This document shows, in pieces, positions 8,643 through 28,007 of a DNA stretch of 64,000 nt. Position 1 is the first letter of the stretch, and each line of letters begins with the position of its first letter. The translations under genes were made by a program, and so were the position numbers. The notes under the pieces are model-generated. The model was not told the DNA's origin and searched no databases. It saw only the letters and a list, made by a program, of their open reading frames with translations. The DNA lies in assembly GCA_003021705.1 (NCBI GenBank), contig PXRJ01000007.1, positions 32,449 to 96,448 of the forward strand, given 5' to 3'. The DNA is from Halobacteriales archaeon QS_3_64_16. Its GTDB lineage: Archaea > Halobacteriota > Halobacteria > Halobacteriales > Halococcaceae.

Positions 8643-9637
8643 TCAGTCCTCGCTCTCGCCGGTGAAAAACTCCCACATGAGTCGGCTCGCATCCGGCGCG
8701 TCGGGCTCGGTGTAGAAGCTGCCGGGCGCACCGCCGGCCCAGGCATGACCCATCCCCTCGATCGCGTACTTCGCGACGAGCACGTCCCCGCTCTCGTCCG
8801 CGAACTCCTGTACAGGAAGTGGTGGCCCGACGACCGCTCCCTCCGGACCGTCTCATGGGTGGTATCGAGACCCTGCTCGTCCGTCCCGTCGGCCGCGAGG
8901 TCGTTCGTCCGGATCGCTTGTGCGGCGGCCTGGTCGCCGTTGATCGGATCGATGGTGTAATCCTCCTCGCCGTGGACGACGATCGTTCGGACGACCCCCG
9001 CTCGCTCGCCCATCTCTTCGTAGGCTTCTTTGCCCTGTTCCTGTGGGTCGGGACCACCGAAACTCATCGCGGCCGGCGCGCCGAGGGCGCTGTTGGCCGC
9101 GTCGTACTCCAGTCCCGAGTGAACGCCGACGACCGCGTAGAGATCGGGGTAAGCCGCCGCCATGATCGGTGCCATCGCGCCGCCGGCCGAAAACCCCGCG
9201 AGGTAGACCGCCGAGTCGTCGATCGCAAACTCCGAGCGTACGTCCCTACTCATTCCGGCAATCGCCGCCGGTTCGCCCGCTCCGCGCCGTTGGTTCTCAG
9301 GTTCGAACCACTCCCAGCACTGAGCGGGGTTCGCGAGGGCCGTCTGATCGGGGTAGATCACGAGAAAATTTTCGCGCTCGGCGAGGGCCGTTCATCCGCG
9401 TTGCGGCCGCGTAAGTAGAGGGAGTCTGTCCACAGCCGTGGAGCATGACTACTAGTGGCACCGGACACCCGTCGTAGCCGCTCGGAACGTATCGTTCGTA
9501 GGTTCGAACCCCTAGTACTCGGTCGTGAACGATCCGGATTCGGACTCCTCCGCTGCGAGCGCTTTCCCGGAGAGGAAGCCACTCGCCGCCGTCGCGCTGA
9601 GGGTCTTCAGCGCCGACCGTCTGGTAATTCGTGTCAT
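8643..9637 (-). pseudogene. Tat-exported PHB-depolymerase/feruloyl-esterase-like gene, frameshifted
   Basis: The parts of one alpha/beta hydrolase are spread over three frames. From 9637 a twin-arginine signal (TRRSALKTLSATAASG) runs to a TAG near 9516. A second frame continues with LGVRTYERYVPSGYDG and the oxyanion-loop motif VVMLHGCGQ. A third frame, from about 9388, gives ENFLVIYPDQ and the nucleophile elbow LAGFSAGGAM. After about 8815 the frame changes again and gives the catalytic-His segment IEGMGHAWAGGAPG, ending at 8643. Joined, the parts match the PHB depolymerase/esterase family of about 320 residues. Three lesions in one gene point to decay, though sequencing errors cannot be excluded. 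Confidence 0.85.
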
Positions 9638-9851
9638 ATGCTTGCACTCGGTAAGTCGTGTGAACTGCCGTGATCGAGCCGATATCAATCTAGCTGCGAG
9701 AACGGGAGCCGAAACCCAGGGGTTCGATCCCTCTTCGACCCGCTGGTCTCGATAGCGATCGAGCCGGTACGCCCTGAGTCGCGCTCGGTTCGTCGGGAGC
9801 AGTTCCTCTTGCCATCGAAACGCTTAGTCCCGATCCGCCACTGTCCCGCCT

Positions 9852-12371: not shown

Positions 12372-13997
12372 TCAGTCGCCGCCGACCTCTCGAAGCCACT
12401 CCCTCAACGCGACCCTATCGACCGTTCCCGAGTCCGTCCGTGGGAGCCTCTCGACGAACGTGATCGTCCGCGGGAGCTTGTAGTTCGCGAGGCGCTCGCG
12501 ACAGAACGCCTCGATCGCACCTTCCTCGACTGCGTTCGTTGCGTTCTCCGCGATCCCTGTATTTCCCTCGGCGACGAGGGCTGCCCCGACCTCCTGGCCC
12601 CACTCCTCGCTCGCCAGTCCCACGACCGCCGCCTCGCGGACGGTCGGATGCTCGCGGAGCACGTCGCTTACCTCCCGGGGATCGACGGTTTGCCCGCCGG
12701 TGAGGATCCGGTCGTCGAGCCGTCCCGTGACCCACACCCGACCGTCGCTATCGATGTAGCCGATATCCCCGGTGTGAAAGCCCGCCTCGGAGAACGCCTC
12801 TTCGGTCGCTCCGGGGTCGTCGTAGTACCTCGGGGTGACGGTCGGTCCGCTGACCACGAGCTCGCCCCGCTCGCTGGCCGCGAGGGACTTCCCGTTCCCG
12901 ACGACCCGCACCCGCGTTCCCAGCAGCGGCCGGCCGACAGTTCCGGGTTCCGAGAACGCTTCTTCCGGCCGGGCGGTCGCGACCTGCGAGGCCGTCTCGG
13001 TCATGCCGTAGGTCGGGTAGACCGGGACGGCCGCCGCCCGGCAGCGCTCGAGCAACTCCTGGGAGGCGGGCGCTCCCCCCAGGAGCACGCATCGCAGTGC
13101 GTCGGGGAACCCTCTCCGTTCCTTGTTCTCCTCGTCGTCCCCGCTCTCGACGATGTCTAACATCCGGGAAAGCATCGTCGGGACGAGCGAGACCAGCGTA
13201 CACTTCCGTTCGGAAAGCGTTCCGAGGGTCCTCCGGGCGTCGAATTCCTGCTGGAGGACGAGCGCGCTTCCGTACAGTACCGTGCGGTAGATCGGCGCGA
13301 GCCCGCCCATCCCGCTCGGCGAGAGCGCTAGCAGCCACCGATCGTCGGGCAGCGTCCCCAGCCGCGAAGCCGAGCCGGCCGCGCTCGCGAGCACGTTACC
13401 CGCGGTCAGTACCACGGCCTTCGGACGCCCGGTCGTCCCGGAAGTAAACAACAGTACCAGTGGCTCCTCGAACCCGACCGACTCGCTCTCGACCGACCCG
13501 CTTCCGATCGCCTCTCTTCCGGCGCTCGTCGCGCCGTTACCGGTTCGTCCGTCCCTCTCGGTCGGATCGCTCTTCTGGCGCTCGAGCGCGTCCCTTCCCA
13601 TCCCCTCGAGTCCATCGACCGGGACGACCTGGGTATCATGACTAACTTCCTCGGTCCCGCTCGCGGCTGCTTCGGCGCTGTTGCCGTAGACGAGCACCTC
13701 ACAGTCGGCTCGCTGTACCCGCGTTTCGATTTCGCCCGCGGTCAGCCGGGGCGAGAGGGGAACCAGTACTCCCCCGCGGCGCATAACTGCGTGGACGAGC
13801 GCGACGGTTCTCGGCTCGACCCCGAGAACGATTCCGACGTGATCGCCCCGGCCGATCCCGACTCTCGCCAGTCCCGCCGCCAGAGTCTCCGCATGCTCGT
13901 CGAGATCGGCGTAGCTCAGGCGCTCGCCCGAGTCCGCCTCGATCAGTGCCGTCGCCTCGGGCGAGACACGAACGCGATCGGCCAGCCAATCAGCCAT
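12372..13997 (-). CDS. menE: o-Succinylbenzoate-CoA ligase
   Basis: An acyl-adenylate-forming ligase that activates o-succinylbenzoate with CoA in menaquinone synthesis. It shows the AMP-binding P-loop (LLFTSGTTGRPKAVVL), the YPTYGMTETASQV motif, the hinge TGDIGYIDSDGRVWVTGRLD, and the C-terminal catalytic lysine region (RLPRTDSGTVDRVALREWL). The 541-residue length is normal plus an acidic insert. ATG 13997 (ADWLADRV) is where homology begins. Assignment to MenE rather than another acyl-CoA ligase rests on the menC and menA genes upstream on the same strand. Confidence 0.85.
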   Translation of the reverse strand: MADWLADRVRVSPEATALIEADSGERLSYADLDEHAETLAAGLARVGIGRGDHVGIVLGVEPRTVALVHAVMRRGGVLVPLSPRLTAGEIETRVQRADCEVLVYGNSAEAAASGTEEVSHDTQVVPVDGLEGMGRDALERQKSDPTERDGRTGNGATSAGREAIGSGSVESESVGFEEPLVLLFTSGTTGRPKAVVLTAGNVLASAAGSASRLGTLPDDRWLLALSPSGMGGLAPIYRTVLYGSALVLQQEFDARRTLGTLSERKCTLVSLVPTMLSRMLDIVESGDDEENKERRGFPDALRCVLLGGAPASQELLERCRAAAVPVYPTYGMTETASQVATARPEEAFSEPGTVGRPLLGTRVRVVGNGKSLAASERGELVVSGPTVTPRYYDDPGATEEAFSEAGFHTGDIGYIDSDGRVWVTGRLDDRILTGGQTVDPREVSDVLREHPTVREAAVVGLASEEWGQEVGAALVAEGNTGIAENATNAVEEGAIEAFCRERLANYKLPRTITFVERLPRTDSGTVDRVALREWLREVGGD

Positions 13998-14490
13998 TGC
14001 TCGCCGAAAGTCCTCGAAGTCATTGACCGTTTCTACGCCCTCCCTTTTCCCGGTCAATCCCTCCGTAGCCGAGCGAAGCGCCCGCCTGGACGCGACGCAG
14101 ACGGCCCTCGACACGCGCTCGCCGCAATAGTCCCTCCCGCATCGCTCCCGAACGGAGGACGTCCATCCCGTCGAGAGCGGCACGTGCCTACTTTGATACT
14201 TGGGATTATAGAGTGTATATAACTAATCGCCGATACTACGATGGTCGGGTAGATGCCCGTATGATAGCCGACACAGGACACAGCACCCTAGCACCGTGGC
14301 GGGAGGGGGCCTCTCGATGCGATCGGATACGGGACCAAAGGGGACACACGCTGGCGGCACGCTTGAGATGGCGGCGACGAATCGACACCCGATCACGACT
14401 GTACGGCGCGCGAGCCCCGTGCGGGGCTGCCGGTCGAGTCTCTGAGAAGACGGCGGCGGGTCCGTGGCGCTCGTCGGGAGTGCCGGCGCG
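13998..14490. other. Gene-free stretch of about 490 bp with AT-rich promoter-like patch
   Basis: Between menE and the HalOD1 gene there is no convincing reading frame; those present are Arg/Pro-rich shadows. The patch 14192-14226 (ttgatacttgggattataga, then gtgtatataactaatcg) is AT-rich and contains TATA-like boxes readable on both strands. It lies about 190 bp before menE and about 265 bp before the HalOD1 gene, so which gene it serves is unclear. Confidence 0.5.
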
Positions 14491-14836: not shown

Positions 14837-15906
14837 TCAGTCAGTAGGTCCGTCGAGTGCTTCTCGCGTGAGTTCTGTCTCGATCGTTCCGGGCGACTGG
14901 GGAACCCGGGCGTAACCGTTCGTTATCGGCGCTGGGTCGCTCCCTACTAGATCCGAATCGAGCAGCGAGGCGGTCGCGAGCCCGGATGGAGAAATCGGCG
15001 CGAGGCTCGCGGCGAGATGGGTCGCGCCCGCCCGCGCGATCGCCCCGTCGATCGTCGTCGTCACTACTGGCTCGACGCCCAGATCAGGACATCGGTCGCC
15101 CCCGCTTCGAGTACCGTCTCGGGGGCGTACTCCGCGAGCGACTCGTCGAGGGCGATCCCTACGGTACTACCACCATCATTACCACTACCCTTTCTCTCGC
15201 GGAGCGCGGCGTGACCCGCGAGATCGTTCGCCGACAGCGGTTGTTCGACGTACGCGAGCCGATCGCCGAGGATCTCTTCGAAGGCCGTGAGCGCCCGTCG
15301 TGCCTCCTCCTGTGACCACGCCCCGTTCGCGTCCGCACGGATCTCGATGTCGTCTCCTTCCCCTACTTCCTCGCCGATCGCCCGTAGCCGCGCGACGTCC
15401 GCCTCGACCGTCCGGGCTCCGACCTTTACTTTGAGGCAACGAAACCCCTCGGCGAGCGCGCTCGCGGCCGCGCTTTCGGCCTCCTTGGGCGACCCGTCGC
15501 CGATCGTCGTGTTGACCGGCACGCGATCGATCTCTCGATCCCCGCCGAGATATCGGTAGAGCGGCTGCCCTGCTTCTCGTGCCCCGAGATCCGCGAGCGC
15601 GGCCGTGAGTCCGTGGCGGGCGGCGGGCGTCTCGATGGCGTCGAGCGTGTCGAGCGCTGCCCGCTTCCCTGCTCGCCGATCGGCATTCGTCGCTTCGTCT
15701 CGATACGCGTCGATCGCTTCCTCCAGTGCTCGTTCACACGTTTCGAGCGATTCCGTCCAACCGGGCAGCGGTGTCGCTTCCCCGATGCCGAGCGTGTTCT
15801 CACCTTCGATGGCAACGAGAAATCCCTCGCGCGCCTCGATCGTTCCGCGGGCTGTTTCGAGGGGGCGAGCGAGCGCCAGCGAGAACGGGGTGATTTCGAT
15901 CGACAT
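14837..15906 (-). pseudogene. menC: o-Succinylbenzoate synthase gene with internal deletion and frameshift
   Basis: The first 260 or so residues are a normal enolase-superfamily MenC: KVKVGA with the first catalytic Lys, IRADANGAW with a metal Asp, and YVEQPL. After GATDVLI (codon at 15082-15084) the frame reads WASSQ and stops at 15064. The missing C-terminal part resumes one frame over at 15079, as GVEPVVTTTIDGAIARAG, and ends at 14837. Family members have about 22-25 residues between these points, including the LKPxxxGG segment with the second catalytic Lys. A deletion that is not a multiple of three has therefore removed it. The product cannot be an active synthase unless this is a sequence error. 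Confidence 0.85.
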
Positions 15907-15909
15907 AGT

Positions 15910-16848
15910 TTACACCGCCAGTCCAACGGAGAACAGTACGGCATAGCCCGCGAGCAGCTTGCCAACCCGTTCGAGCGCCGGATTGAGCGCTTCGCCGCTC
16001 GTCTCGGTCAGAACGGTTCGGGAGACACCAATCGCGTAGGGAAGCGTGACAGTCGGGAAAAGTACCCCGATCCCGAAGCGCGGATCGGCGAGCAGGACGA
16101 CGGGGATCACGTAGGCCATCCCGACCAGCGCCAGGAACTCGATACGGCTCCAGGTATAGCCCACGAGCACCGCGAGCGTGCGCTTGCCTGCCTGTCGGTC
16201 GGTCCCTAAGTCCCGTACGTTGTTCACGACGAGGATGCAGGTACTCAGCCCCGCGATCGGGAGGCTCGCGACGATCGCTGCGAGCGGCAACGTTCCGGGC
16301 GGGAGCCAGAGCGGGACCGCCCCGGCGTTTGCGAGCGCCGCCGCCTGTACGTAGTAGGTCCCGCTCACGGCGACCAGGCCGAAAAAGACGAAGACGAAGA
16401 GATCGCCTAACCCGTAGTAACCGAAGGGATAGGGCCCGCCGGTATACGCAAGACCGCTGAGAACGCTCGCGAGCCCTACCAGGAGGATCGGGACGCCGCC
16501 GACGGACACCAGATAGGTTCCGATACCGATCGCGAGCGCGAAAGTAGCGTACATCGCCCGCTTGACTGCCTCAGGGGCGATCAGCCCGCCGGCGGTCACC
16601 CGGGTGAACCCCTCGCGCTTCTCGGTGTCGGTCCCTCGGACGGCGTCGTAGTAGTCGTTCGCGAAGTTCGTCCCGATCTGGATGCACAAGGCTCCCAGTA
16701 GCGCTGCGAGCGCCGGCAGGGGCGCGAGTGCGTCGAAGCCGATCGCGAGGCCGACGCCGACGATCACCGGCGCGCCACCGGCCGGTAAGGTCTGGGGCCG
16801 GGCGGCCATCACCCAGGCCCGCCGGCGCGAGACCTCTTGTGTACTCAT
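15910..16848 (-). CDS. menA: 1,4-dihydroxy-2-naphthoate polyprenyltransferase
   Basis: An integral membrane UbiA-family enzyme that attaches the prenyl chain to DHNA, the last-but-one step to menaquinone. The first Asp-rich motif NDYYDAVRGTDTEKR binds prenyl diphosphate through Mg; the second is NNVRDLGTDRQAGKRTLAV. About eight hydrophobic helices are present across 312 residues. ATG 16848 (MSTQEVSRRRAWVMAARPQT) is chosen over 16878 because it precedes the conserved RPQTLPA. It is followed after 3 bp by menC on the same strand, so they form one operon. Confidence 0.92.
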   Translation of the reverse strand: MSTQEVSRRRAWVMAARPQTLPAGGAPVIVGVGLAIGFDALAPLPALAALLGALCIQIGTNFANDYYDAVRGTDTEKREGFTRVTAGGLIAPEAVKRAMYATFALAIGIGTYLVSVGGVPILLVGLASVLSGLAYTGGPYPFGYYGLGDLFVFVFFGLVAVSGTYYVQAAALANAGAVPLWLPPGTLPLAAIVASLPIAGLSTCILVVNNVRDLGTDRQAGKRTLAVLVGYTWSRIEFLALVGMAYVIPVVLLADPRFGIGVLFPTVTLPYAIGVSRTVLTETSGEALNPALERVGKLLAGYAVLFSVGLAV

Positions 16849-16938
16849 TGTCGGGTAGTAGAGGTCCGGTAGCGTCAACCTTCGGATACGAGCCCGGACC
16901 GGATGATCCTGGGGGGTTCCGGTTGTGAGGACGACTGC

Positions 16939-17637
16939 TTACCAGTCGATGACTTCTCGGTCGCGCCAGAACCGACCGCCGGGGCTCCCGGGTGCGAAGC
17001 GAGCGAGCCAGATCGGCGTGTCCGCTCCCTCGGCGGGGCTTCTGGGTGCTTCCGTGCCGCCCATGTCGGTGCTGACCCACCCCGGCGACGCGGCGTTGGC
17101 GACCAGCCCTCGATCGCCGTACTCACCCTGCAAATAGACGGTCAGCCCGTTGAGACCGGCCTTCGAGATCCGGTAGGCCGGTGACCCACCGCCCATTGCC
17201 TCGGTCAGCGCGCCCATCCCGCTCGATACGTTCACCACGCGGCCCCCCTCTCGTTCTAATAGCAAAGGCAGGGCGGCTCTCGCCAGTAGCACCGATCCCC
17301 GGAGGTTCGTCTCGAGCGTCGCGTCGATACTCTCGACCGACGCCTCGTCGAGCGAATCGCTCGGTCCACCGATGCCGGCGTTATTGACCAGCACGTCGAG
17401 CCGACCGGTTTCCTCCCTAATGCGGTCGATCGCCGCTTCGATACCCTCCTGGTCGGTCACGTCGAGTTCGATCGGCCGCCACTCCTCGGCCGCGAGGTCG
17501 CTCCTATCGCGAGCGCCGGCGTACACGGTCGCGCCGCGGTCGGCGAGCCCGCTCGCGATCTCCCGCCCGATACCGAGGGTCGCGCCCGTCACGAGCGCGA
17601 CCTGTCCGGCGAGGTCGTCGTAGAGGTCCGGGTCCAT
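16939..17637 (-). CDS. Short-chain dehydrogenase/reductase
   Basis: A classical SDR of 232 residues. The Rossmann cofactor motif is TGATLGIG near residue 18, followed by NNAGIGG near 87, the catalytic Ser in NVSSGMG, and the YRISK Tyr/Lys pair. The end after SPGWVSTDMGG is short. Acid after strand 2 is absent (AGARDRS), which leans towards NADP. The substrate cannot be inferred. It lies 90 bp upstream of menA on the same strand, but membership of the menaquinone operon is not shown. Confidence 0.85.
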   Translation of the reverse strand: MDPDLYDDLAGQVALVTGATLGIGREIASGLADRGATVYAGARDRSDLAAEEWRPIELDVTDQEGIEAAIDRIREETGRLDVLVNNAGIGGPSDSLDEASVESIDATLETNLRGSVLLARAALPLLLEREGGRVVNVSSGMGALTEAMGGGSPAYRISKAGLNGLTVYLQGEYGDRGLVANAASPGWVSTDMGGTEAPRSPAEGADTPIWLARFAPGSPGGRFWRDREVIDW

Positions 17638-19111: not shown

Positions 19112-19525
19112 TTACCCCAGCTGCTCGTCTAAGATCAGCCGGGTCTCGGTGCTTACGATCTCTTCCATCTCCCGGGCCTGGCTGATGAGGTCGTTCACCC
19201 CTTGAGTGTCGGCGGCGTCGACCACGAGCACGACGTCCTTACGGCCCGAGACCTGCCAGACGAAATCGACCTCGGGCCACTCTGCCATCCGCTCGGCGAC
19301 CGCCGAGGTATCGACCGCGACGTCGACGCTCGCCTCGATCATCGCCTTGATATTGCCTGTCCGAGTGGCGATCGTAAAGCGCTCGATGACGCCGTCCTCG
19401 CTCATGCGATCGACCCGATTACGAACGGTGCCCTCCGAGGTCCCGACCCGGTCGGCGATCTCGGTGTAGGGGGTCCGGGCGTCCCGACGGAGCGCGTCCA
19501 AGATAGCGCGATCGAGGTCGTCCAT
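19112..19525 (-). CDS. Lrp/AsnC family transcriptional regulator
   Basis: A 137-residue Lrp-type regulator. The N-terminal helix-turn-helix covers residues 1-55 (LDRAILDALRRDARTPYTEI, TSEGTVRNRVDRM). The C-terminal RAM ligand/oligomerisation domain follows (VDFVWQVSGRKDVVLVVDA). ATG 19525 gives the canonical MDDLDRAIL start. It is divergent from carA, and a 13-bp palindrome lies between them, so it probably controls carA and itself in response to an amino acid. Confidence 0.92.
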   Translation of the reverse strand: MDDLDRAILDALRRDARTPYTEIADRVGTSEGTVRNRVDRMSEDGVIERFTIATRTGNIKAMIEASVDVAVDTSAVAERMAEWPEVDFVWQVSGRKDVVLVVDAADTQGVNDLISQAREMEEIVSTETRLILDEQLG

Positions 19526-19571
19526 AGGAACCCGAGTACACTTCTCGCGCACTTGTCGGTTGCGGGCTGGC

Positions 19572-19584
19572 TACGAAATTCGTA
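19572..19584. promoter_or_regulatory. Palindrome TACGAA-A-TTCGTA, probable Lrp operator
   Basis: A perfect 6+1+6 palindrome between the divergent lrp-type and carA genes. It sits 20 bp upstream of the carA TATA box, in the region that would hold an upstream regulator. The half-site TTCGTA is repeated at 19630-19635, just before the carA start. Sites of the type TACG...CGTA are the usual target of archaeal Lrp proteins; binding here is inferred from position. Confidence 0.55.
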
Positions 19585-19604
19585 ATCTCGCTTCGAAAGC
19601 AACG

Positions 19605-19610
19605 TTTATA
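19605..19610 (+). promoter_or_regulatory. carA TATA box
   Basis: TTTATA preceded by a purine-rich BRE-like stretch (cgaaagcaacg). It lies 27 bp before the ATG at 19637, so the transcript would start a few bases from the start codon, close to leaderless. Confidence 0.55.
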
Positions 19611-19636
19611 ATGGGTGCAGCTGTACGGTCTTCGTA

Positions 19637-20701
19637 ATGACAGAGGCCTACGTGGCCATCGAGGGCGAACGGGTGATCGAGGGGCGGACGCGCGCGCCGG
19701 GGCGTACCCGGGGGGAAGCCGTGTTCACAACCGCGTATACCGGCTACGAGGAGAGCCTCACCGACCCCTCCTATGCCGAGCAGGCTCTTACCTTCTCCTA
19801 CCCGCTGATCGGGAACTATGGGGTGCGATCCGAACGTTTCGAGTCCGATCGGATCCAGCCCCGGGCGGCGATCGCCCGCGAACTCACTGACGACGTCGCC
19901 GACTGGCTCGCGAGCGAGGCGGTGCCCGCCGTCGATCGCCTCGATACCCGCGATCTGGTGACCGCCATCAGGGAAGAGGGCGCAATGGGCTGTGGCATCG
20001 CCGCCGGGCCCGAGGCCACCCCCGAGACCGCACTGGAGGAACTCGATCAGTGTGAACCCATGAGCGCCCACACCGATATCGGCGCGCGGGTCTCGGTCGC
20101 CGATCCCTACACTCTGAATGCCGATGGTTCCGGCCCTCGCGTTGCCCTGCTCGATTGTGGTGCGAAAGCGTCGATCCTCGACTCGCTTCTCGCTCGGAAC
20201 GCGGTCGTAGAGGTCTTACCCTACGACGCGACGCCCGCGGCGGTCTCGGCGACCGATCCCGACGTGCTGTTCGTCTCGAACGGGCCGGGCGATCCCGAGA
20301 CCTATGGAGCCGCGAAAAGAGTCATCGGGGAGCTCTGTGGGGAGCTACCGATCGCGGGGATCTGTCTCGGTCAGCAGATCGTCGCGAGCGCGCTCGGCGG
20401 AAGTACCGAGAAGATGCGCTTCGGCCACCGCGGGGTTAACCAGCCGGTGCGCGATCTCGATAGCGGCCGCGTCGTGATGACGACCCAGAACCACGGCTAT
20501 AGCGTCGCCGATCCCGGCGATCTGGCCGTTACCCAGCGCAATGTCAACGACGACACCGCCGAGGGCCTCGCCAGCGCCGAGCTCTCGGTTCTCACCCGCC
20601 AGTACCATCCCGAGGCCCACCCCGGGCCGCATGACTCGCTATCCTTCTTCGACGACGTGCTCGCGATGAGCGCGGCGAAAGCGGTCCCGACGGCTGACTG
20701 A
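19637..20701 (+). CDS. carA: Carbamoyl-phosphate synthase small (glutaminase) subunit
   Basis: Releases ammonia from glutamine for the large subunit, feeding pyrimidine and arginine synthesis. The N-terminal CarA domain contains VFTTAYTGYEESLTDPSYAEQ. The class I glutaminase domain begins near residue 170, with the nucleophile Cys near 242 (AGICLGQQ), VFVSNGPGD-type oxyanion loop (VSNGPGDPE) and the HPE-type dyad (QYHPEAHPG). At 354 residues it is complete. carB is not adjacent. The divergent Lrp-type gene and the operator palindrome suggest amino-acid-responsive control. Confidence 0.94.
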   Translation: MTEAYVAIEGERVIEGRTRAPGRTRGEAVFTTAYTGYEESLTDPSYAEQALTFSYPLIGNYGVRSERFESDRIQPRAAIARELTDDVADWLASEAVPAVDRLDTRDLVTAIREEGAMGCGIAAGPEATPETALEELDQCEPMSAHTDIGARVSVADPYTLNADGSGPRVALLDCGAKASILDSLLARNAVVEVLPYDATPAAVSATDPDVLFVSNGPGDPETYGAAKRVIGELCGELPIAGICLGQQIVASALGGSTEKMRFGHRGVNQPVRDLDSGRVVMTTQNHGYSVADPGDLAVTQRNVNDDTAEGLASAELSVLTRQYHPEAHPGPHDSLSFFDDVLAMSAAKAVPTAD

Positions 20702-20831
20702 GATCGTCCCTGCGGCCGACCTTCCGGTCGAACCGGTGCTCGTCACGACAGCACGGACACGCAACCGAAACCGGTTCGGAACCTATCGATATATCCCCAA
20801 GCGTTTTGACTCGCTTCGGTGTAGTTCGATC

Positions 20832-21482
20832 ATGAGCGTCATCGCCGAGATCGACCTCGACACCGATCGGCTGGCGTGTGCCGGGGCGATCGAGGCGGTT
20901 CCCGAGGTCGAGCTCGATCTCGAGCGGGAGTTCACGACCGGTTCGGAGACCGCCGTCGTGTTCATGTGGGCGCGAGCGACTGCCGAGGAACTCGACCGCT
21001 TCGAGGACGGGCTCGCGGCCGACGGGACCGTCTCGGACGCGAAGCGACTGGGCGATCACGGCGGCGAGCGCCTCTACCGGATGACTCTCACCGGCGCGGC
21101 ACCGGTCGTCACCGCGCCGGTCTGGGTCGAGTTGGGGGCTGCTCGCCTCGCGATGCGGTATTTCGACGGGCACTGGCGCGCGCGGATGCGCTTTCCCGAT
21201 CGGGAGACCTTGAGCGCGTTCCGGGATTTCTGTGAGACCGAGAACCTCGGCTTCAGGCTCCATCGGCTCTGTGATGCGGAGGGCCGGGAGGAAGCCGTCG
21301 GCGACGGCCTCACCGACTGCCAGCGCGAAGCCCTGCGTCTGGCCGTCGATCGAGGCTATTTCGACCTGCCCCGACGGACGAGCCTCGCGGACCTCGCCGC
21401 CGACCTCGAAATCTCCGATCAGGCGGTCTCCGAACGCCTCCGACGCGGCTGTGCCCGCCTCATCCGCCAGCACGTCGACTAA
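20832..21482 (+). CDS. Bacterio-opsin-activator-type HTH-10 regulator
   Basis: A 216-residue haloarchaeal transcription factor. The N-terminal part (MSVIAEIDLDTDRLACAG, FMWARATAEELDRFEDGL) resembles the ligand/dimer region of the Bat-like family. The C-terminal HTH-10 domain is clear: LTDCQREALRLAVDRGYFDL, then TSLADLAADLEISDQAVSER. Its targets are unknown. The ATG at 20832 starts the conserved MSVIAEI. An AT-rich box (tatatcc near 20789) lies about 40 bp upstream. Confidence 0.85.
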   Translation: MSVIAEIDLDTDRLACAGAIEAVPEVELDLEREFTTGSETAVVFMWARATAEELDRFEDGLAADGTVSDAKRLGDHGGERLYRMTLTGAAPVVTAPVWVELGAARLAMRYFDGHWRARMRFPDRETLSAFRDFCETENLGFRLHRLCDAEGREEAVGDGLTDCQREALRLAVDRGYFDLPRRTSLADLAADLEISDQAVSERLRRGCARLIRQHVD

Positions 21483-21916
21483 CGAGTTTTCGCGGTCCTT
21501 CGTTTTCCCGCCCGCGTTTCTACGCTACTCAACCCTCCTTTTCTCTGGGAGACATCGATCTAACCACTCATAGCCTACAAACTTCGACCTCCGAGTTCTG
21601 GTGTGAGGTCGAACTGACAGCCACCGTACTTACAAGGGAAGTTCTCTGAGCAGGATTGCAGGCCCATCGTGCTGGCAACCTCACTACCGAGGACCTGACC
21701 AACGCATACTTCCTACTTTGTGAAACTAATTTTTGCCCGTTTAGTATTACTGTACCGGAAAACAGAACGGTTGTCTTATGTGTTATCGGCTATTCCGTGT
21801 TCTATAAACGATCCGTTTCAGAACAGCGGATCCTCCGCGCTGTTCGATCCGGACGAATCGTCGCCGACGTGTGTGAGGGAGCCAGTGACCGTGAGGTCAA
21901 CGCCAACGGAGGCGAA
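21483..21916. other. Gene-free, partly AT-rich stretch of about 430 bp
   Basis: No convincing gene. The DNA from about 21700 to 21830 is AT-rich compared with its surroundings, and reading frames there show no family. A well-placed GGAGGCG at 21909-21915 before the ATG at 21917 belongs to the decayed stress-protein gene. The composition change suggests an old insertion or deletion scar next to that pseudogene. Confidence 0.5.
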
Positions 21917-22549: not shown

Positions 22550-24985
22550 TCACTCCGACCGTCGCCCGGCGTGACCGGGGTAATCGCGCTCGAAGCGATC
22601 GTTTATCTCCTCGCTGCCGAACTCGATCATGACCGGCCGGCCGTGCGGACAGGCGTAGGGGTTCTCACACGCGTCGAGCGCGTTGAGCAGATCCACGATC
22701 GAGCCCGTCGACAGCGAGGTATTGCCCGTGATCGATGGGTAACACGCCAGATCGGCGAGCAGGGCGTCGGCCGCGGCCTCTACCGTCTTTCCGGGCCGTT
22801 CGGCCGCGACGAACGCCCCAAGGACGTCCCGTAACAGGGCTGGATCACAGCCGGCGATCGCCGCCGGCACCGTCCGTACTGCTACCGTCCGCTGGCCGCC
22901 TTCGCCTGCCTCGTTGTCGCCGCTCACGGTATCGCCGTCGCCGTTCTTCCCGTTCCCTTTTCCTGTTCGGTCCTCGTTCTCTTCGCGGTCCTCACCCTCG
23001 CTTTCGGTCAAGGAGGCATAGAAGCCGAGACCTGCGAGGGTATCGATAGCCGACTCGAAGAGGGCGGCCTCGCCTGCGGTGAGTTCGATTTCGACCGGTT
23101 CGGCGAGCGTTTGTGCCTCGCCACGGGGCAGCCGCTCGCGCAGGCGCTCGTAGGTGACCCGCTCGTCGGCGGCGTGCTGATCGATCAGTACCAGGCCCTC
23201 ACTTGTTTCGGCGACGACGTAGGTCTCATCGAACTGCCCGAGTACGCGCAGTTCAGGCAAGCGCTCGAACTCGTGGCGGCGATCGACTCGCTCCCCCGAG
23301 AGCGCTCGCTGCTCGCCCGCCGAAAACCGATTCGTCGTCTCCTCCGATGACCGGGCTGCCGTCTCCTCGATGTGGGCGTGTAGGTCTCTCGTCCCCTCGA
23401 GATCGACCGCCGGGCACCTCTCACTTGCCGGCGGCTCGGACGTGTCGTGCTCGTCGGTCGGGTCTCCGCTCCCGTCTGGCCCGTGGCCGTCCCCTTCGTT
23501 CCCATCGAGCGCTCGCGTTCCACGATCGCTCGAGCTACCCTCGCTCTCGCCCGGCGTTTGATCGATGTCCCCTCCGGTCGGTCTGCCTCGTTCCTGCCTG
23601 TCTCGCCCATCTGCCTCGTCGCTGGGTCCGTCCACTCCCTCGGCCCCGCGTTCGTTCTCGGCGTCTCCTCCGATCGACTCGCCGGTGGCTGCCGTCTCTG
23701 CCCTCGACGTCTTCTCTTCCTGGGCTGCCGGTGCCGCACTCCGCTCTCGGCCCGTGTTCGCCGAGGGCTCCTCGCTCGCGTTCTCGGCTCCGCTGTCGCC
23801 CTCGCGCGTTCCGGGTTCTTTCTCCTTACCGTCGCTCGCCTCGGGTTCGATCCGGGTCTGTGTCGGGGCCGATCGCCCGCGCGGCGCTCCCGATCGAACC
23901 AGGCCCGCATCCAGCAATGCCTGCTCGACGCGCGCTTCGATCGCTTCCCTAACTGTCTGCTCGTTCTCGAATCGCACTTCGAGTTTTCGGGGGTGGACGT
24001 TCGCGTCCACCGCTTCGGCGGGCACCTCGACGTCGAGAACGGCGAAGGGATACCGATCGGGCGCGAGCTGGCCGCCGTAGGCCGCCACGATCGCCTCCCG
24101 GAGCGCCCCGGCGGTGACGTAGCGGCCGTTTACGATCGTCGTCACGTACGCCGGGTTCGCCCGCGTCGTCTCCGGATCGGAAACCAACCCCCTGATCGCC
24201 GCGATCGGGCTCCTCTCCTCGTCGATCCCTCCATTCTCGTCTCCACCGTCGCTATCGCCATCGCTCCCCGCGTCGAGGGGGATCATCGCCCCCGCGACCT
24301 CCCGGCCGTAGGTCGCGAGCACCGCCTCGCGGCGATCGCCGCTCCCGCTCGTCGCGAAGGTCTCCCGGGAGCCGTGTTCGAGCGAAATAGCGACTCCGGG
24401 GTTCGCCAGCGCGTAGCCGGTGAGGATCCGGTTGACGTGGGCGAACTCCGTCGATTCCCGTTTGAGATACTTCTTCCTGGCCGGCACGTTGTAAAAGAGG
24501 TCGCGCACTTCGATCGTCGTCCCGGCCGGACAGCCAACGGGCGAGACGGACTCGATTTCCCCGCCCCGCACCACGAGCTCCGTGCCCCGCGCCCCGCCGC
24601 GGGGCTTCGTTCGGATCGTGAGCTGTGCGACCGCGCCGATCGCCGCGAGTGCCTCCCCGCGAAAGCCAAGGCTCGAAACCCCGCTTTCCAGATCCTCGAT
24701 AGCGGCGATCTTGCTGGTGGTGTGTTTCTCGATCGCTTTCCGCACGTCCGCTTCGCTCATGCCGATCCCGTTATCCGCGACGGTGATCCCCTCGATGCCG
24801 CCGCTTTCGACGCTTACGCTCACCCGCGAAGCCTCGGCGTCGATGGCGTTCTCGACCAGCTCCTTCACCGCCGAGGCGGGCCGCTCGACGACCTCGCCCG
24901 CGGCGATCCGGTCGATGGTCGCGTTATCGAGCCGCTCGATCCGCCCGCTCTCGTCCGCCTCGCTCGTCCCAGCGTCGTCAGTCAC
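22550..24985 (-). CDS. mutL: DNA mismatch repair protein MutL
   Basis: An 811-residue MutL. The N-terminal GHKL ATPase has ELVENAIDAEASRV, ADNGIGM and LGFRGEALAA. The C-terminal dimerisation domain carries DQHAADERVTYE near residue 600. This matches exactly the DQHA-x2-E-x4-E nicking-endonuclease motif, so this MutL should cut nicks itself, as in organisms without MutH. Between them lies a 200-residue Glu/Asp/Arg/Ser-rich linker, expanded relative to bacterial MutL and probably disordered. It overlaps the end of mutS by 4 bp and is translationally coupled. Confidence 0.95.
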   Translation of the reverse strand: MTDDAGTSEADESGRIERLDNATIDRIAAGEVVERPASAVKELVENAIDAEASRVSVSVESGGIEGITVADNGIGMSEADVRKAIEKHTTSKIAAIEDLESGVSSLGFRGEALAAIGAVAQLTIRTKPRGGARGTELVVRGGEIESVSPVGCPAGTTIEVRDLFYNVPARKKYLKRESTEFAHVNRILTGYALANPGVAISLEHGSRETFATSGSGDRREAVLATYGREVAGAMIPLDAGSDGDSDGGDENGGIDEERSPIAAIRGLVSDPETTRANPAYVTTIVNGRYVTAGALREAIVAAYGGQLAPDRYPFAVLDVEVPAEAVDANVHPRKLEVRFENEQTVREAIEARVEQALLDAGLVRSGAPRGRSAPTQTRIEPEASDGKEKEPGTREGDSGAENASEEPSANTGRERSAAPAAQEEKTSRAETAATGESIGGDAENERGAEGVDGPSDEADGRDRQERGRPTGGDIDQTPGESEGSSSDRGTRALDGNEGDGHGPDGSGDPTDEHDTSEPPASERCPAVDLEGTRDLHAHIEETAARSSEETTNRFSAGEQRALSGERVDRRHEFERLPELRVLGQFDETYVVAETSEGLVLIDQHAADERVTYERLRERLPRGEAQTLAEPVEIELTAGEAALFESAIDTLAGLGFYASLTESEGEDREENEDRTGKGNGKNGDGDTVSGDNEAGEGGQRTVAVRTVPAAIAGCDPALLRDVLGAFVAAERPGKTVEAAADALLADLACYPSITGNTSLSTGSIVDLLNALDACENPYACPHGRPVMIEFGSEEINDRFERDYPGHAGRRSE

Positions 24986-27819
24986 GATTCCTCCAGGCGT
25001 TCCTGCCAGGCGCGGATCTCGCCGAGGAGATCGATCGGTGCGGTCCCTTCCAGATCCGCGTCCCGGAGTTCCTCTAGCACCCTTTCCTCGGCGGGATCGA
25101 TGCTCTCGGTCGCCGGTTCGGTCGCCGCTTCCGTCGATACCCCGTCAGTTCGCTCCCCGGCTCCGTCCTCGTTGCCTCCACCGGCCGGTTCGCCCCGTTC
25201 GAACCCGCCTGTCCCGAGATCGAAGACGACCTGCTGGGACCCGCTTTCAGTGTGGGTCCCGTCTTCACTACCCCCTCCACCGGGGTCGCCGCCGCGGGCT
25301 TCGATGGCGTTTTCTTCGCGTAAGTTCCTGAGCACGTCGTTCGAACGCGAAACCACGGGATCGGGCACGCCAGCGAGTTCGGCCACGTGCACGCCGTACG
25401 AACGGTCGGCCGCGCCCTCCTGGATCGCGTGCAGGAACGTTACCTCCCCCTCCCGCTCTTCGGCCGCGACGTGGACGTTTGTCGCCTGTCCCAATCGCTC
25501 GACGAGTTCGGTCAGTTCGTGATAGTGGGTCGCGAAGAGCGTGCGTGCCTTGATCCGGTTGTGTAAGTACTCCGTAGCCGCCCAGGCGATCGAGATGCCG
25601 TCGTAAGTCGCGGTACCCCGCCCCACCTCGTCGAGGACGACGAGGGACTCGGCGGTCGCTGAGTGCAGGATGTTCGAGAGTTCCGCCATCTCGACCATGA
25701 AGGTCGAACGGCCCTGGGCGAGTTCGTCGAGTGCCCCGACCCTGGTGAAGATCCCATCGACCGGCTCGATCTCGGCCGCTCGCGCCGGCACGAAACTGCC
25801 GATCTGCGCCAGAAGGACGATCAGAGCCGTTTGGCGCATGTAGGTCGATTTCCCCGACATGTTCGGGCCGGTCACCAACAGCAACGAACGCTCATCGTCG
25901 AGGCGGGTGTCGTTCGGGACGAACTCGGTGGTGTTCTCGACCACCGGATGCCGACCGGCCTCGACGTCGATGCCTCCCCCCCCGAACTCGGGGCGAGTCC
26001 AGTCCTGTCGTACCGCATGCACCGCGAGCGCCCCCGCAACGTCGATCCGAGCCAGCGCCCGGCCCGCGTCCTGGAGAACCTCAGCCGCCGCTGCGACCGT
26101 CTCGCGGAGCTGCTCGAACGCTTTGCTTTCGAGGTCGGCGCGGCGCTCTTCGAGCCGGAGGAGTTCGCCCTCCCGTTCGCCTAAGTCCTCGGTCGTGTAC
26201 CGCCGGGAGTTCTTCAGCGTCTTCACTTCCTCGTACTCTTTGGGGGTCTTGCCGGTCTCGGAGTTGCCGACTTGGATGTAGTAGCCGTCCGTTTTGTTCC
26301 GGTCGATCTGGAGGTGAGTGATACCGTGGCGGCGCTTCTCACGGGCTTCGAACGCTTCGAGCCACTCGATCACCGCCTCGTACTCGCTTACTACTTCGTC
26401 GATCGCCGCGTCGTAGCCCTCTTTTATTACCCCGCCCTCGCTCGCCGTTCTCGGTGGATCCTCGGCCAGTGCCGCGTCGAGTTCGCGTTCGAGCTCATCT
26501 ATGGCCGCGCGATCCGGTTCGTCGAGCACCGCGGCGACCGGCGATTCGGCGAGCCGGGAGTCGGTTATCGCCGCGTCGAGCGCCGGGAACAGCGCCAGGG
26601 TCTCGCGCACGCGAAGCAGATCCCTCGGCCCGACTGTCCCCGAGACCGAGCGGCTCGCCAGCCGTTCGAGGTCGTACGCTTCCCCCAAAATCCCCCGTAG
26701 TTCCTCGCGGGCGAGGGCCGCTCCACAGAGGGTCTCGACGCTCTCCTGGCGCGCTTCGAGTTCCTTGCTGTCCCGCAGCGGTCGCGTGAGCCGTTCGCGT
26801 AGCAATCGCCCGCCCGCACTCGTCTGCGTGTGATCGATCGTCCCGAGCAACGATCCTTCCCGACTGCCCTGCATCGTCTCGGCGAGTTCGAGGTTGCGTT
26901 GGGTCGTCGCATCGAGCGAGACGTCCTCCTCGTAGGCCCCCAGGCGCGTCATCGAGGCGAGCACGCCGGCTCCGGTCTCCTCGACGTACGCGAGGATCGC
27001 TCCGGCGGCCCGCTCTGCTGCGTCCTCCAAGCCGGCGCTCGCCCCCGCTCGCTCGCCGAAGTGGTCGGCGAGTCGACGGCGCGCCCGCCCGGGGGCGAAC
27101 GCCTCCGCGTCGTAGTCGGTCAGGGTGGTCTCGATCCGGCCCGCGACGTCCTCGAGCAGTGCTCTACTCGCGTTCGGACCACCGAGGATCTCGGCCGGCG
27201 AGAAGCGATGGAGTTCGGTGCGTGCGGCCGCCCCGCCCTTGACCGTCGTCGCGTGAAACCGGCCGGTCGTGACGTCCGCGAACGCGAGGCCGTAGGTCCC
27301 TCCGTCTTCGCTGATCTCTTTCGGGCCGTCGCCCTCGTCGTTCCTGCTCTCCCCGCTCGTGTGATTTCCGTCGTCGTTTCGCGCCCGGTCGCGCTCGCTC
27401 GCGGTCTCACTTCCTTCCTCATTTTCATCACCGCCCTCGCGGACGACCGCGGCGAGATACTGGGCGTCGGCATCGGTCGTCTCGAGCAAGGTCCCAGGGG
27501 TCGCGACGCGGCTGATCTTCCGTTGGAACCCGCTATCGGTCTCGCGCTGGTCGGCGACGGCCACCCGGTAGCCTCGCTCGACCAGCGCCGTCAGGTAGGG
27601 CGTGAGATCGGCGAGCGGGACGCCGGCCATCGGATAGCTCCGGTCGCCCGCGCCCTTCTGTGAGACCGTCAGGTCGAGTTCGTCTTCGACCAGTTCGGCA
27701 TCGTCGCCGAAGAACTCGTAGAAATCCCCACACTGCATCGCCAGTACGTCGGCGTCGGTCTCGCGCTTGAGCGCGAGGAACTGACTCACGATCCCGTCGT
27801 CGTTCCCGGCCGCAGCCAT
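24982..27819 (-). CDS. mutS: DNA mismatch repair protein MutS
   Basis: A 945-residue MutS1-type mismatch-recognition ATPase. The mismatch-binding Phe-x-Glu is in CGDFYEFF, near residue 31. The core lever and clamp domains follow, and the ATPase P-loop is VTGPNMSGKSTYMRQ near residue 650, with the Walker B at VVLDEVGRGTATYDG. Halophilic acidic inserts occur around residues 120-165 and in the tail after 815. ATG 27819 (MAAAGNDDGIVSQF) is preferred to a GTG four codons upstream. Its final codons overlap the mutL start. Confidence 0.95.
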   Translation of the reverse strand: MAAAGNDDGIVSQFLALKRETDADVLAMQCGDFYEFFGDDAELVEDELDLTVSQKGAGDRSYPMAGVPLADLTPYLTALVERGYRVAVADQRETDSGFQRKISRVATPGTLLETTDADAQYLAAVVREGGDENEEGSETASERDRARNDDGNHTSGESRNDEGDGPKEISEDGGTYGLAFADVTTGRFHATTVKGGAAARTELHRFSPAEILGGPNASRALLEDVAGRIETTLTDYDAEAFAPGRARRRLADHFGERAGASAGLEDAAERAAGAILAYVEETGAGVLASMTRLGAYEEDVSLDATTQRNLELAETMQGSREGSLLGTIDHTQTSAGGRLLRERLTRPLRDSKELEARQESVETLCGAALAREELRGILGEAYDLERLASRSVSGTVGPRDLLRVRETLALFPALDAAITDSRLAESPVAAVLDEPDRAAIDELERELDAALAEDPPRTASEGGVIKEGYDAAIDEVVSEYEAVIEWLEAFEAREKRRHGITHLQIDRNKTDGYYIQVGNSETGKTPKEYEEVKTLKNSRRYTTEDLGEREGELLRLEERRADLESKAFEQLRETVAAAAEVLQDAGRALARIDVAGALAVHAVRQDWTRPEFGGGGIDVEAGRHPVVENTTEFVPNDTRLDDERSLLLVTGPNMSGKSTYMRQTALIVLLAQIGSFVPARAAEIEPVDGIFTRVGALDELAQGRSTFMVEMAELSNILHSATAESLVVLDEVGRGTATYDGISIAWAATEYLHNRIKARTLFATHYHELTELVERLGQATNVHVAAEEREGEVTFLHAIQEGAADRSYGVHVAELAGVPDPVVSRSNDVLRNLREENAIEARGGDPGGGGSEDGTHTESGSQQVVFDLGTGGFERGEPAGGGNEDGAGERTDGVSTEAATEPATESIDPAEERVLEELRDADLEGTAPIDLLGEIRAWQERLEES

Positions 27820-28007
27820 GTCCACCCACACTCGGCGCGGGAACTAAAGCCCTGCCGGAAGCACAGTGAAACTGAATCCTTTAGTAGTGAGCCGTTCTCG
27901 GCGTGTTCCGACCGATCCCGCGAAGCCGGCATCCGGACCCGATAACCCCGGTCACGCCCGATCGGCGACGCCGACAGTCACTTGCTCGCTCCGGTACTGG
28001 TCTACCC

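Follow-up and report, generated by a model that had tools for sequence, protein, structure and literature searches.

An apparent loss of menC from a haloarchaeal metagenome-assembled genome very likely reflects an error of local assembly

The window analysed here—a 64,000-nucleotide stretch of contig PXRJ01000007.1 from Halobacteriales archaeon QS_3_64_16 (G000)—contains three neighbouring genes of menaquinone synthesis, menA, menC, and menE (Table 1). Both menA and menE had been called intact in a preliminary description made from the sequence, and both are indeed full length by their TIGR00751 and TIGR01923 matches. The menC open reading frame retains the KxK motif and the three metal ligands (D, E, and D) expected of its family, in the segments KVKVG, RADANGAW, VEQPL, and ALDES, and an intact relative (P0001) aligns to enolase-superfamily structures. 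Its score against TIGR01927 (87.9 bits) lies below the equivalog cut-off of 130.55, as do the scores of most intact haloarchaeal MenC proteins searched.

Table 1. Menaquinone genes and the break in menC (window positions)
Feature	Position	Strand	Description
menA	15910-16878	-	Intact; TIGR00751 above cut-off
menC as read	15064-15906	-	280 aa, of which 275 are genuine MenC and the last five are WASSQ before the stop; TIGR01927 7.4e-25, profile positions 3-219 of 307
Seam in menC	15079-15080	-	64 bases absent relative to three same-genus menC genes; microhomology of no more than about 1 base
Displaced MenC C-terminal tail (GVEPVVTTTIDGAIARAG...)	14837-15079	-	Frame shifted, otherwise intact
menE	12372-14183	-	Full length, ORF with upstream extension; TIGR01923 at 314.6 bits (cut-off 330.15), covering profile positions 1-441 of 442

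As deposited, the menC frame stops right after GATDVLI-WASSQ, and the remainder of the protein continues one frame over, with two bases (TG) separating ATC, the last intact codon, from the out-of-frame tail; this layout, already noted in the preliminary description, was borne out by both ORF reading and alignment. The alignment with MenC of relatives that the same description had proposed, made at the nucleotide level with three same-genus genomes, placed one gap of exactly 64 bases (3 x 21 + 1) between 15080 and 15079. Thus, the expected out-of-frame loss is confirmed as one of 3n + 1, while its length falls just under the 65-75 bases anticipated. At this point the three relatives carry TCTG-TAAGCCGATGG, or a close variant, which encodes CKPMxLGG, the segment that contributes the second catalytic lysine (CKP within the genus; LKP, VKP, or CKP elsewhere). 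The deposited gene therefore lacks this lysine, in agreement with the original reading of the locus, though the segment is most likely present in the organism itself. Because the gap interrupts a stretch shared by all intact relatives aligned, the break is no accident of frame reading. It is also the single frame break of the gene, the alignment with relatives revealing no further lesion. A microhomology-driven deletion was rejected as the origin of the seam, given the near absence of shared bases at its edges (Table 1).

Among the Men genes tested in this genome (menA, menB, menC, menD, and menE), menB and menD are intact on another contig (C27). The preliminary description had inferred that MenC is dead and that menaquinone must be made another way, be taken up, or depend on a second MenC, and this conclusion is not supported: MqnA of the futalosine route was not found in this genome or in four relatives (five genomes), and of nine enolase-superfamily matches in the genome, the MenC family was matched only by menC and one distant gene. 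No second MenC was thus found in the bin, where the other candidates were distant enolase-superfamily genes only; since the bin is 79% complete, this absence is not proof.

Comparison with relatives raised the question of whether menC has been lost more than once. MenC is intact in G001, G002, G005, and the other family members aligned. In the closest relative, the metagenome-assembled genome (MAG) Halobacteriales archaeon QH_8_64_26 (G003; 77% identity), the CKPMALGG segment is likewise intact, yet menC there has its own abrupt 70-base out-of-frame gap some 60 bases further downstream. That the two sisters have distinct lesions in this gene could reflect either parallel loss or the same type of assembly fault occurring twice. 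In the former case, MenC would have been lost very recently here and separately in the sister, under a relaxed need for it, with menaquinone or o-succinylbenzoate (OSB) obtained from neighbours or made by an unknown OSB synthase. We consider this unlikely. The two distinct out-of-frame lesions, the cleanness of the gap, and the lack of a second MenC in the incomplete bin speak for it, whereas the intact state of menB, menD, menA, and menE, the conservation of MenC in the relatives named above, and the recurrence of the same gap size class in unrelated genes speak against it. Selection on menC also shows no relaxation: against G003, dN/dS is 0.285 for menC upstream of the gap, 0.325 for menE, and 0.152 for menA, and against G001 it is 0.47 for the displaced menC tail and 0.455 for menE. 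With dN/dS like that of menE and one lesion, menC does not resemble a decayed pseudogene, which would show relaxed selection or several lesions; had the gene truly been lost, each of the two sisters must have lost it very recently. Moreover, a different pattern is seen in six members of the order (G025, G040, G051, G029, G031, and G043; genomes partly incomplete), where weak MenC matches only are accompanied by the absence of MenB above cut-off; this is what true, coherent loss of the pathway looks like, among genomes of varying completeness. Three of these (G025, G040, and G051) belong to one family of the order, in which menaquinone synthesis has possibly been lost coherently.

To place the menC seam in context, intact ORFs were compared across four genomes: 867 kb were taken from this one, 333 kb from each of G003 and G001, and 1.2 Mb from G009, a single-contig genome of the same family. 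Gaps were counted where nucleotide alignment confirmed them or where the flanking segments abutted directly. Abrupt out-of-frame gaps were found in this genome in menC (64 bases) and a YcaO-type gene (82 bases), the two members of the size class in the approximately 867 kb sampled; in G003 in menC (70), mutS (83; C19:30534, the counterpart of window positions 24982-27831), C19:39655 (67), and C88:51692 (82); and in G001 in a MutS-like ATPase (65), an enolase-superfamily gene (64), and an RND transporter (61 and 151), the last of which, with several lesions, could be a true pseudogene. Nine of the ten fall within 61-83 bases, and with counts this small we claim no significance beyond the size pattern. 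In the single-contig genome, by comparison, approximately 187 conserved loci contained no abrupt out-of-frame gap of at least 50 bases. Two further cases in G003 were left uncounted—an SDR gene (counterpart of window positions 16939-17637), where the alignment was poor, and one on contig C103 that holds an N run. Short N runs in G003 contigs and N runs in scaffolds of this genome also speak for assembly faults; one of 223 bases (C7:32226-32448) adjoins the start of the window and may be a scaffold gap. Hairpins were rejected as a common cause, the missing segments as a group not folding unusually well. Their GC content as a group does not stand out either; the segment missing from menC here, judged from G003, has 73% GC against a background of 65%.

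The strongest single fact concerns another gene. The only cysS of this genome, encoding cysteinyl-tRNA synthetase, is thrown out of frame by an exact 13-base tandem duplication (C32:10483-10508), and is intact in the sister G003. A cell without cysteinyl-tRNA synthetase should not live, and it is therefore very probable that one or more frame-breaking errors are present in the assembly. Other genes show smaller breaks, for example a 2-hydroxyacid dehydrogenase gene that has lost one base. Within the window, a polyhydroxyalkanoate-depolymerase-like gene (8646-9802, minus strand) has three single-base frame breaks relative to an open 382-aa ORF of G003. A 2.4-kb patch at 19113-21541, with a putative carA and a putative HTH regulator, shares 95.6% identity with G003 where its surroundings share 80-86%, and may represent recent recombination or a chimeric join; it contains no Rfam match.

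Since similar gaps recur in sister drafts and an essential gene is broken in the draft itself, we regard a local assembly error as very likely the source of the menC gap. Two contig ends would have been joined during metagenome assembly without the roughly 64 bases separating them in the cell, and the organism would have an intact MenC and make menaquinone by the classical MenF-D-C-E-B-A route. Reads would then be expected to cover the absent stretch, and the seams stay putative errors. Chen et al. (2020, PMC7111523) described local errors in assemblies of the IDBA-UD type, and IDBA_UD is suspected of faults like these. The salt-crust project of the sister MAG, source reads of which are in BioProject PRJNA351262, used IDBA_UD with 100-base paired reads (PMC5532433); we infer its link to that project's Qh site from the name QH_8_64_26, and the connection to IDBA_UD covers the sister rather than the present genome. 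Against an assembly error stand the small number of such seams in this genome, two in the roughly 867 kb sampled, and the coincidence, under random error, of the same gene being hit in two sister MAGs (a few percent by our estimate), unless the GC-rich 3' end of menC is prone to drop-out, which would ease it. Even less probable than parallel loss is a mixed population, with the deletion present in part of the cells and the minority or a collapsed path chosen during assembly. MAG drafts are in general population consensuses in which the assembler must pick one path, but this scenario leaves the recurring size class across genes and species unexplained.

Taken at face value, the deposited sequence would suggest quinone cross-feeding among haloarchaea. 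If two sisters had indeed lost MenC independently and kept the other tested Men genes, they would take up OSB or menaquinone from salt-crust neighbours or possess an unrecognised OSB synthase. The assembly-error reading instead carries a caution—such MAGs can hold 60-85-base seams that resemble clean gene losses, and the agreement of a sister species misleads if the sister suffers the same class of error.

Compared with known systems, the gene resembles MenC/OSBS (o-succinylbenzoate synthase) of the enolase superfamily in its TIGR01927 match, its menA-menC-menE order, and its KVKVG, RADANGAW, YVEQPL, and ALDES segments, but differs as deposited in the missing CKPMxLGG segment with its second lysine and in a C-terminus out of frame. 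The cluster is likewise similar to the haloarchaeal menFDBACE pathway (e.g., Halodesulfurarchaeum, PMC5437934), with menA, menC, and menE adjacent and menB and menD on contig C27, although here menC as deposited is frame-broken and the cluster split over contigs. Finally, judged from assembled sequence, and with IDBA_UD documented for the sister's project, the menC gap shares with the errors of IDBA-UD-type assemblies (PMC7111523) the form of a brief, abrupt break within a contig that is otherwise good, recurring in sister drafts and accompanied by a broken essential gene in its own draft.
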